From: Actinospica acidithermotolerans
Lineage (GTDB): Bacteria > Actinomycetota > Actinomycetes > Streptomycetales > Catenulisporaceae
Direction of reading: 5' to 3'
Assembly: GCF_018139625.1 (NCBI RefSeq)
Contig: NZ_JAGSOH010000022.1
Span: forward strand, 1-64,000
Length of the DNA stretch: 64,000 bases
Shown piece after piece: positions 5,008 through 8,650 of this stretch. Below the pieces are notes generated by a model. The model ran no database searches. It was not told the origin of the DNA and saw nothing but the letters and a program-made list of their open reading frames with translations. Within the stretch, counting starts at the first letter, position 1. Each line of letters opens with the position of its first letter. A program made the position numbers and the translations under genes.

Positions 5008-6069
5008 TCACCAGTGCGCTTCGAAGCCGCCGTAGAACAGGCCGATACCGGTCATCATGCAGAGTCCTGAGATGATCCAGAACCGGATGGTCACGTTCAC
5101 CTCGGGCCAGTCCAGCTCGAAGTGGTGGTGGATCGGCGCGATCTTGAAGACGCGCTTGCCGTGCCGCAGCCTGAACGAGCCGACCTGGATGATGACGGAG
5201 AACAGCTCCATCAGGAACAGGCCGCCGATGACCGCGGCGAGCGCCTCCGTGCGGGTGCAGATGGACAGGCCGGCGAAGGCGCCGCCGAGGGCGAGCGAAC
5301 CGGTGTCGCCCATGTAGATCTTCGCCGGAGACGCGTTCCACCAGAGGAAGCCGAAGCAGGCGCCCATGACCGACGCGGCGACGATCGCGAGGTCGAGCGG
5401 ATCGCGGACCTGGTAGCAGCCGGCGGCCGCGGCGCGACCGCAGCTCTGGCCGTACTGCCAGACGCCGATCACGACGTACGCCGCGAAGGCCATCGCCGCG
5501 GCGCCGCTCGCCAGCCCGTCCTGGCCGTCGGTGAGATTGACGGCGTTGGACCAGCCCGCGGTGAGGATGTAGCACCAGAGCACGAACACCGGGCCGATGC
5601 CGAGCCAGCTGACGTCGTGCAGAAAGGAGATGTGGTCGCTCGCCGGGGTGAGGCCCATCGCGTCGCGGAAGTGCAGCGCGAGCAGCGCGAACGCGATCGT
5701 GACGGTCCACTGGCCGACGAGCTTCGCCTTGGCCCGCAGGCCGAGCGAGCGACGGTTCCGGATCTTGATGAAGTCGTCGACGAAGCCGACCAGCCCCATG
5801 CCGACCATCAGCAGCAGTACCAGCAGCGCCGAGGGCGTCGGGGCCTTCCAGGTCACCAGCTTCGCGAGGAAGTACGCGACGACGGTGGAGAGCACGATCA
5901 CCATGCCGCCCATCGTCGGCGTGCCGCGTTTGACCAGGTGGCTCTTCGGCCCGTCCTCGCGGATCTCCTGGCCGTAGCCGCGCCGCGTGAACAGCCGGAT
6001 CGCGATCGGCGTCCCGGCCAGGGAGCAGATCAGCGCGATGACGGTGGCGTACAAGACCGCTCGCATCAT
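5008..6069 (-). CDS. mraY: Phospho-N-acetylmuramoyl-pentapeptide-transferase paralogue
   Basis: 353-residue polytopic membrane enzyme of the MraY family, which transfers phospho-MurNAc-pentapeptide from UDP to undecaprenyl phosphate (lipid I synthesis) on the cytoplasmic side of the membrane. Visible motifs are GTPTMGG (49-55), the metal-binding DDFIK (98-102), NAVNLTDGQDGLA (175-187), MGDTGSLALGG (253-263) and PIHHHFE (312-318). About ten hydrophobic segments are present and the length is normal. ATG at 6069 follows GGAGGGGG. It is not in a dcw cluster (no mur, fts or ddl neighbours), so it is probably a second copy. One oddity is Gln183, where LTDGLDGL normally has Leu; that loop borders the uridine pocket in structures of MraY. 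Possible roles are a backup enzyme, a developmental enzyme, or an inhibitor-insensitive copy. Confidence 0.9.
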   Translation of the reverse strand: MMRAVLYATVIALICSLAGTPIAIRLFTRRGYGQEIREDGPKSHLVKRGTPTMGGMVIVLSTVVAYFLAKLVTWKAPTPSALLVLLLMVGMGLVGFVDDFIKIRNRRSLGLRAKAKLVGQWTVTIAFALLALHFRDAMGLTPASDHISFLHDVSWLGIGPVFVLWCYILTAGWSNAVNLTDGQDGLASGAAAMAFAAYVVIGVWQYGQSCGRAAAAGCYQVRDPLDLAIVAASVMGACFGFLWWNASPAKIYMGDTGSLALGGAFAGLSICTRTEALAAVIGGLFLMELFSVIIQVGSFRLRHGKRVFKIAPIHHHFELDWPEVNVTIRFWIISGLCMMTGIGLFYGGFEAHW

Positions 6070-6197: not shown

Positions 6198-6977
6198 ATG
6201 ACGGCGCTGTACCAGGATGTCGCGCTGCGGCTGCGCCGGGCGATCAGCGACGGGACGTACCCTCCCGGCTCGCAACTGCCGTCCGAGCACGAGCTCGCCG
6301 AGTGGTTCGGCGTGGCCCGCAGCACGATCCGGCACGCGCTGGCGATGCTCGGCGAGGACGGCGTCGTCGCCTCGCACCGGGGAGCGCGGCGGACGGTGCT
6401 GGCCGTGCCGCGGCTGCAGAACTTCGGCGAGCTGCGCTCGTTCTCGCTCTGGGCGCGGTCGATCGGGGCGGAGCCGAGCGGACGCGTCGAGCTCCTCGAA
6501 CGGCGAGCGGCCACGGAGGTCCAGGCACGTGAGCTGGGCCTGTCCGCGGACGATCCCGTGATCTACGTCGTGCGCGTGCGGCTGCTCGACGGCAAACCGG
6601 TGATGATCGAGCGCACGGCGTACGTGGAGCGCGCGGGCCTGCTGCTGTCCTTCGTCGACCTCGAACGCGAGTCGATCAGCGAACGGCTGGAGGAACACGG
6701 CATCGTGTTCGCGCACGCAGAGCACACGATCGACGCCGTCAACGCCACGCCGGACGACGCCCGGCTCCTCGCCATCGAGCCGGGCCTCGCGCTGTTGCGT
6801 GAGCGGCGCCGGGCCACGGATCCGCGCGGGCAGGCCCTGGAGTGGTCCGAGGACCGCTACGTCGGCGACGCCGTCGCCTTCACCATCCGCAATTCCATCG
6901 CCCTCTCGCCGCTGGTGCGCGACCGGGCCGCCACGCCGGAAACCGCCGCCGCATCGACGACCAACTCAGGGAACTGA
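6198..6977 (+). CDS. GntR-family regulator with UTRA effector domain (HutC/PhnF subgroup)
   Basis: 259 residues. An N-terminal winged helix (residues 5-70; AISDGTYPPGSQLPSEHELA then VARSTIRHALAMLGEDG) is followed by a UTRA ligand-binding domain (about 90-235) with the conserved PVIYVVRVRLLDGKPVMIERT stretch in two parts and the C-terminal EDRYVGDAVAF segment. UTRA regulators sense small metabolites; phosphonate (PhnF), histidine and sugar-phosphate regulators belong here. ATG at 6198 is preferred to upstream in-frame starts, which would read through the palindromes. The next gene begins 7 bp after the stop, so it is probably cotranscribed with the TmpA-TmpB-like locus and may control it in response to a phosphonate. 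The palindromes at 6141-6174 are candidate operators. Confidence 0.88.
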   Translation: MTALYQDVALRLRRAISDGTYPPGSQLPSEHELAEWFGVARSTIRHALAMLGEDGVVASHRGARRTVLAVPRLQNFGELRSFSLWARSIGAEPSGRVELLERRAATEVQARELGLSADDPVIYVVRVRLLDGKPVMIERTAYVERAGLLLSFVDLERESISERLEEHGIVFAHAEHTIDAVNATPDDARLLAIEPGLALLRERRRATDPRGQALEWSEDRYVGDAVAFTIRNSIALSPLVRDRAATPETAAASTTNSGN

Positions 6978-6984
6978 CGACAGC

Positions 6985-8650
6985 ATGCACGAGGACCCGC
7001 ACGAGGACTACCCGGCCGCCGTCTGGCTGCGCGACAACTGCCCCTGCGAACAATGCGTCGTCCCCGGCAGCGGCCAGAAGTTGTTCGGGATCACGGATCT
7101 GCCGCGGCCGGAGGATATCCGGATCGAGCGGGTCGATCAGGATGCCGACGGCGGCGTGACGTTCGTGTTCGCCCCGGACGGGCACGAGTCGCGCTTCGAC
7201 GCCGGCTGGCTCGCGGGCAGTCGGCCGGGCCGGCGCCTGCCGTACGACGATCGGGCCGAGGACGCGAAGACCCTCTGGCAGGCCGCCGACTTCGCGGGCG
7301 GCGTGCCGTCGAGCGGATGGAACGCGTTCGCGAACGATCCCGCGACGCAGGCCGAGTGCCTGGAATCCCTGCTCACCAAGGGGTTCTTCCTGCTGCGCGG
7401 CGTGCCGGCACGGGAACGGACCGTGCTCTGCGTCGCCGAGGTCTTCGGCTTCGTGCGCGACACGAACTACGGGGACCTGTTCGACGTCCGGGTCGAGCAG
7501 GATCCGGCGAACCTGGCGTTCACCGCGCTCCCGATCCACGCCGCACACGGACAATCCGTACCGCGATCCGGTGCCGACGATCCAGCTGCTGCACTGCCTG
7601 GCGAACGCCGCCGAGGGCGGCGATTCCGGGCTCGTGGACGGCTTCCACGCGGCGGCGACACTCCGCCGCGAACAGCCGGACGCCTTCGGCATCCTCACCC
7701 GCACGCCCGTGACGTTCCGCTACCGCGACGCCGAGGCAGAGCTCACCGCGACCAACCCGCTGATCGGGCTCGACGCGCTGGGCCGGATCAAGCAGATCCG
7801 CTTCAACAACCGCTCCATGCGGCCGATCGCGACAGCCACTGCCGACGGGATCACGCCGTTCTACGCGGCGTACCGGGCGTTCGCCGAACTGCTCTACCGC
7901 GACGAGGCGCGCCTCGACCTCCGGCTGGAGCCCGGCGACTGCGTCGTCTTCGACAACACGCGCATACTGCACGCTCGCACCGGATTCACCGCGAGCGGGC
8001 ATCGTCACCTGCAGGGCTGCTACGCCGACCTCGACGCCGCCGCAAGCACGCTGGCCGTACTCCGGCGCTCGCTACACCAGGGATATCCGACCATGAATCA
8101 GAGTATTGTCGACGTGCTCGCGCGGCTGTTCGCCGAGCAGGGCGGGAACGAGTACCTCGGCGAGCCGGTGACGCAGGCCGAGCACATGCTGCAGGCCGCC
8201 GCGTGCGCCGAGGCCGCAGGTGCCGAGCCGTCGCTGGTCGCGGCGGCGCTGCTGCACGACGTCGGCCACTTCACCGGCGAGATCAGCGGGCACGAGCTGA
8301 TGGCGGGCACGGACAACCGGCACAGCCACTCCGGCGCCGACTGGCTGGCCGCCGCCCGGTTCCCGGAGACGGTGACGGAGCCGGTCCGGCTGCACGTCGC
8401 GGCGAAGCGCTACCTGTGCGCCGTCGAGCCCGGCTACTTCGACCTGCTGTCCGAGGCGTCCGTGTTCACGCTCGGCGTGCAGGGCGGCCCGATGGACGCC
8501 GACGAGGTCGCGGAGTTCGAGCGCGGCGGATACGCGCAGGCCGCCGTGGCACTGCGTCGCTGGGACGAGGCGGCCAAGGACCCCGGGGCGCGGGTGCCCG
8601 GGTTCGATCACTACCGTCCGCTGCTCGAGAACCTGCTGAGCCGTCGGTAG
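6985..8650 (+). pseudogene. tmpAB: TmpA-TmpB-type phosphonate oxygenase fusion, frameshifted
   Basis: Two non-heme-iron oxygenases in one locus. From ATG 6985: a GBBH-like N-terminal zinc domain (WLRDNCPCEQC) and then the TauD/gamma-butyrobetaine-hydroxylase fold of TmpA, which hydroxylates (2-trimethylammonio)ethylphosphonate at C1. The frame breaks at 7541-7543: one extra base (most simply a C in GCCGC) precedes the codons for HTDNPYRDP, which carry the iron-binding HxD. Removing one base gives LPI-HAHTDNPYRDPVP, as expected. The second frame continues to VVFDNTRILHAR and HRHLQGCYADLD and then, with no stop codon, enters a TmpB/PhnZ-like HD-domain oxygenase at Met 8093 (YLGEP, LLHDVGHF, RHSHSGADWL, LHVAAKRYL, GVQGGPM), which cleaves the hydroxylated product to glycine betaine and phosphate. 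The predicted repaired protein is about 369 + 185 residues. Either a natural mutation or a sequencing error. Confidence 0.75.

Follow-up and report, generated by a model that had tools for sequence, protein, structure and literature searches.

Here, we analyze a tmpA-tmpB locus in a 64,000-nucleotide stretch of Actinospica acidithermotolerans DNA (the window), and conclude that it is probably a GntR-regulated operon in which tmpA is broken, tmpB is translated from the ATG at 8093, and the missing stop codon between the two genes is a by-product; genuine joins of these genes lie elsewhere, and appear to have arisen several times. Our verdict on the window's own copy is that it is ordinary or broken, and we regard it as unlikely that this copy acts as a functional fusion. 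The earlier note on this DNA had proposed a single-chain TmpA-TmpB enzyme. That idea holds in other actinobacteria, where sequence indicates that the joined TmpA-TmpB is a genuine single chain, and is doubtful in the window, where tmpA is interrupted near 7540.

The window comprises positions 1–64000 of a 74,986-base contig (C144) from a draft genome of 7.9 Mb, whose genus is shared with Actinospica durhamensis. Between 6198 and 8650 on the + strand, a GntR/UTRA regulator is followed by a TmpA-like gene and then a TmpB-like gene. The regulator, first gene of the operon (6198–6977, +), matches Pfam GntR (3.8e-18) and UTRA (7.3e-31), its HutC/PhnF-type matches falling below cut-off. A relative of this GntR-type regulator adjoins most actinobacterial tmpAB loci. 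It lies upstream in Actinospica, in Catenulispora and in the Streptomyces loci L007/L099; elsewhere, where found, it is mostly downstream and in the opposite direction. ABC transporter families of the 2-aminoethylphosphonate (2-AEP) type give weak matches near the tmpAB genes of L032, L022 and L011, which fits phosphonate use at such loci. A full MraY-like gene occupies 5008–6069 of the window on the − strand (294 bits versus a cut-off of 192), and another full copy is found on contig C379. Two more TauD-family genes of the genome (C414:22207-22998 and C177:31037-31993) lie away from its only TmpB.

The N-terminal half of tmpA starts at ATG 6985 and holds its frame to about 7540 (6985–7543, +; GBBH-like N domain, 6.8e-08; NCBIfam TmpA, 8.8e-41, profile positions 9–186). 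The C-terminal half is read in a different frame, that of tmpB, and extends from HTDNPYRDP at 7544 to a VLRR motif ending at 8068 (7544–8068, +; NCBIfam TmpA, 9.6e-79, profile positions 188–365; PDB 6npb, 1.4e-51). Alignment with A. durhamensis places the frame change at 7530–7552 (+), and a frame-plot model trained on a congener gives 7543 as an independent estimate of the coding switch, with strong coding signal retained in both halves. Relatives are intact at this point. Both halves share one frame in 60 of the 62 relatives in which both were found, and the exceptions (L063 and L075) have their breaks or divergence elsewhere. When the break is read as X, TmpA scores 419.3 bits against NCBIfam NF049936, above the curated cut-off of 400; the halves alone score 139.9 and 264.8, and the fused relative L007 scores 427.9. 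The Fe-binding HxD...H triad is present; HTD (at 7544) and the LHAR of the C-terminal half both align with 6npb. What the window lacks is a TmpA in a single uninterrupted frame. Because of the interruption near 7540, no ribosome that starts at 6985 gets to tmpB in frame.

This break could be an error of the draft assembly, though the genome sample gives no clear excess of frame switches (2.1 per 100 kb, versus 1.7 in a one-contig congener). These rates do not support an indel-prone assembly as the sole cause. In the coding sequence of the window, the frame plot registers one switch of this kind in 58 kb. Two further public tmpAB loci, L020 and L063, are broken by frame changes.

The tmpB gene (8093–8650, +) encodes a PhnZ-like HD oxygenase and has a probable start of its own at ATG 8093. 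Its product exceeds the cut-off of TIGR03276 (Phn-HD; 217.7 versus 214.6 bits) and falls below that of the equivalog NF049941 (212.8 versus 300), for which the fused L007 gives 200.1. The closest solved structure is TmpB 6npa (3.9e-49), and the match to PhnZ is 7.5e-35. HD-domain oxygenases of this kind have a metal-ligand motif and a YxxE loop, as defined in PMC8177086; in the window's TmpB, all positions of H...HD...H...H...D and of the loop align with 6npa and 4mlm. The Pfam, NCBIfam and PDB (6npb and 6npa) matches bear out the earlier family assignments, namely TmpA of the TauD/BBOX type and TmpB of the PhnZ-like HD type. Judging by family membership, TmpA would use Fe and 2-oxoglutarate to hydroxylate C1 of a quaternary-amine phosphonate such as TMAEP, and TmpB, a predicted di-iron HD enzyme, would then cleave the C-P bond, yielding phosphate and glycine betaine.

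At the junction, the VLRR that ends at 8068, the last conserved residues of TmpA, is followed by eight stop-free codons (SLHQGYPT, 8069–8092, +) and then by Met 8093, so that the linker of about eight residues reported earlier is indeed there. Pfam and NCBIfam assign sequence before 8092 to TauD/TmpA and sequence after it to Phn-HD/TmpB. One open frame runs from 7544 to the stop at 8648–8650, in a frame open for 496 codons. The claim that TmpA and TmpB are fused in one frame stands to this extent: 7544–8650 is open and stop-free, but of TmpA, which is broken, this stretch holds just the C-terminal half. Had tmpA lost its stop, its frame would coincide with that of tmpB with a chance of about 1/3, and eight codons would be free of stops with a chance of about 0.86, as estimated from base composition. 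Given these odds, the absence of a stop carries no significance by itself. We take it to be a by-product, and not an evolved fusion, with tmpB most likely translated from ATG 8093.

The window keeps this ATG in surroundings that resemble an initiation region. The 40 bases around 8093 reach 55% A+T, more than any other such stretch of the region, and structure this weak is seen at just 1.7% of positions. The corresponding site has weaker structure in relatives with separate genes than in those with a fusion (median 16th versus 52nd percentile; Mann-Whitney p = 0.0005, kinship ignored). The Shine-Dalgarno comparison points the opposite way: the value before 8093 (−5.0 kcal/mol) is the average of random positions, and the median for separate relatives is −9.5. 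With so weak a Shine-Dalgarno sequence, an independent tmpB start is not assured, and read-through is possible. In A. durhamensis, of the same genus, tmpA and tmpB are two genes with an ATGA overlap. In the same family, Catenulisporaceae, a stop follows TmpA in three loci, and Catenulispora keeps two genes. According to the earlier note, translation of TmpB from 8093 as a separate protein, or a stop at the junction in relatives, would speak against a fusion. The relatives and the initiation-like sequence at 8093 do so; the weak Shine-Dalgarno sequence and the tree, discussed below, do not.

Could the window nonetheless encode TmpA and TmpB as one true fusion enzyme, with no more than a sequencing or assembly error behind the shift of frame in tmpA? 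We find this improbable. In its favor are the stop-free junction, the poor ribosome-binding site at 8093 and the fused Streptomyces pair L007/L099, whose TmpA ranks with the nearest relatives (~80% identity across the C-terminal half) and whose regulator lies upstream, as in the window. On a tree built from both proteins, with junction columns excluded, a grouping of the window with this pair is neither backed nor rejected (AU p = 0.44), with support of 81/29 for where the window falls relative to its fused and separate neighbors. However, a true fusion does not sit well with the retained ATG and A+T-rich stretch, nor with the separate genes of A. durhamensis. The distance from RR to LF is 19 residues in the window and 8–15 in genuine fusions, the linker contains G, P and rare codons, and the assembly bears no clear sign of being error-prone.

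It is also conceivable, if doubtful, that a second nearby indel, whether error or mutation, masks a normal overlap of the tmpA TGA with the tmpB ATG, as in A. durhamensis. An ATGA does lie at 8093–8096, with its TGA in the +1 frame; ATGA or GTGA is found at the junction of most separate relatives, and one frame change in tmpA is already known. The linker codons are poorly adapted in every frame, which favors our main reading; their equal adaptation in frames 0 and +1 favors a second indel. Yet this explanation requires two events instead of one, coding signal is best in frame 0 as far as about 8040, and the ATGA may be chance, the codon after Met starting with A. Programmed ribosomal frameshifting, which would link both tmpA frames in normal expression and account for the strong coding signal in both halves, is highly unlikely; we rejected it, as a frame change at this point is absent from all relatives compared. 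We favor the reading of the window as a broken tmpA followed by a tmpB with its own start.

As the earlier note had proposed, we searched for other single-chain TauD-HD fusions, gathering TmpB relatives by one scan of a genome collection and four taxon surveys. TmpA is adjacent in 64 of the 113 TmpB loci. With the window, duplicates and damaged copies removed, TmpA and TmpB form one open frame in 20 loci and two genes in 36. L020, which has a break inside tmpB, was classed by its junction, and L066, a fused gene with an internal deletion, was left out of the fused count. The 20 distinct fused loci, which belong to Streptomyces, Kitasatospora, Kutzneria and one further relative, are intact, keep the metal ligands and show the fused TauD-HD architecture, one chain with both complete domains, that the window lacks. 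In an end-to-end alignment of 15 fused proteins, the iron-ligand positions are invariant. An order-level sample of 394 genomes contains 27 TmpB places (E up to 1e-40); TmpB shares a frame with TmpA at 7 of them (the window among these), is separate at 12 and has no adjacent TmpA at 8. In L066 (3362-4342, Kutzneria sp. 744), the deletion inside the fused gene takes out the final part of TmpA together with the beginning of TmpB. TmpB-like genes without a recognized adjacent TmpA (L003, L095–L098, L101, L102 and L113) occur in a second Actinospica, in Catenulisporaceae and in other genomes, and one genome has both kinds of TmpB locus (L092 and L113). In Embleya, a copy on a megaplasmid (full-length plasmid match) has a TmpA that ends in its own stop.

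In genuine fusions, the join appears to be tight and the tmpB start region lost. A usable tmpB start is absent from the junction in at least one member of each of four fused lineages. L007 and L099 have no ATG, GTG or TTG between the YADLD of TmpA and the YLGE of TmpB, and L111, of the S. xylophagus group, has no start candidate near the beginning of TmpB. Several Kitasatospora offer as a start only the VLRR valine, which has no ribosome-binding site, and the one candidate of Kutzneria L022 and L032 is a methionine within the first helix. Ambiguous cases are L037, L078 and the sisters of L111 (L013–L016), the latter retaining a GTG or ATG that has a plausible site.

Joining of TmpA and TmpB appears to have occurred several times. 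On the tree, joined and separate states require at least five changes, four of them forced by well-supported branches, a count that does not distinguish gain from loss. The junctions of the fusions differ in sequence and in RR-to-LF length (8, 9, 10 and 15 residues), which fits separate origins. A further reading would have the bifunctional chain arise several times independently, through tight helix-to-helix junctions of differing length, with the window at an early stage, its stop already lost and its tmpB start still in place. We consider this combined reading unlikely.

A model of the fused chain of S. alanosinicus, of moderate quality (pLDDT 77.9, pTM 0.64), has halves that match TmpA 6npb and TmpB 6npa by sequence and fold. 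Its helix 352–377 leads from the last part of TmpA into the first part of TmpB (pLDDT about 75–81 across the bridge), a suggestion that in fusions the last helix of TmpA may run straight into the first helix of TmpB. A second model, of Kutzneria L032, was too poor for use (pLDDT 66.8). If the helix is continuous, junctions of different length would rotate the domains differently, making a conserved tunnel unlikely. The variable spacing seen in the sequences argues against a single conserved channel geometry, and the likely gain from joining would be equal dosage and proximity instead of a specific tunnel.

TmpA and TmpB of Leisingera caerulea (PDB 6npa-6npd) have been described as a two-protein pathway (PMC10574752, PMC8177086). 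The window resembles that system in its two domains, gene order and metal ligands (1.4e-51 for the C-terminal half of TmpA, 3.9e-49 for TmpB), but in L. caerulea the two are separate proteins from a two-gene operon with an unbroken frame. PhnY*/PhnZ likewise work in two steps, hydroxylation and then C-P cleavage, but they act on 2-AEP, are separate proteins, and are less similar to the window than is TmpB. A described single chain is PhoF of the fungus Fonsecaea multimorphosa, a fused PhnY-PhnZ (PMC10574752). By its described architecture, it resembles the actinobacterial fusions in placing the 2OG and HD oxygenases of one phosphonate pathway in one chain; it differs in being fungal and acting on AEP and 3-aminopropylphosphonate, whereas the chains of actinobacteria belong to the TmpA (BBOX-like) type. 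Our searches of open literature, to which the primary TmpA/TmpB and PhoF papers did not belong, turned up no account of TmpA-TmpB fusion in bacteria; this is not proof of novelty.

The window also carries a warning for annotation, since two genes in frame with each other downstream of a frame break can pass for a fusion. In the family at large, the recurrent joining of two successive enzymes suggests that holding them together is useful. The sister lineages with fused and separate genes, and the several junction lengths, provide a natural set in which to ask whether the hydroxylated intermediate is handed on, or whether joining does no more than coordinate the two enzymes.
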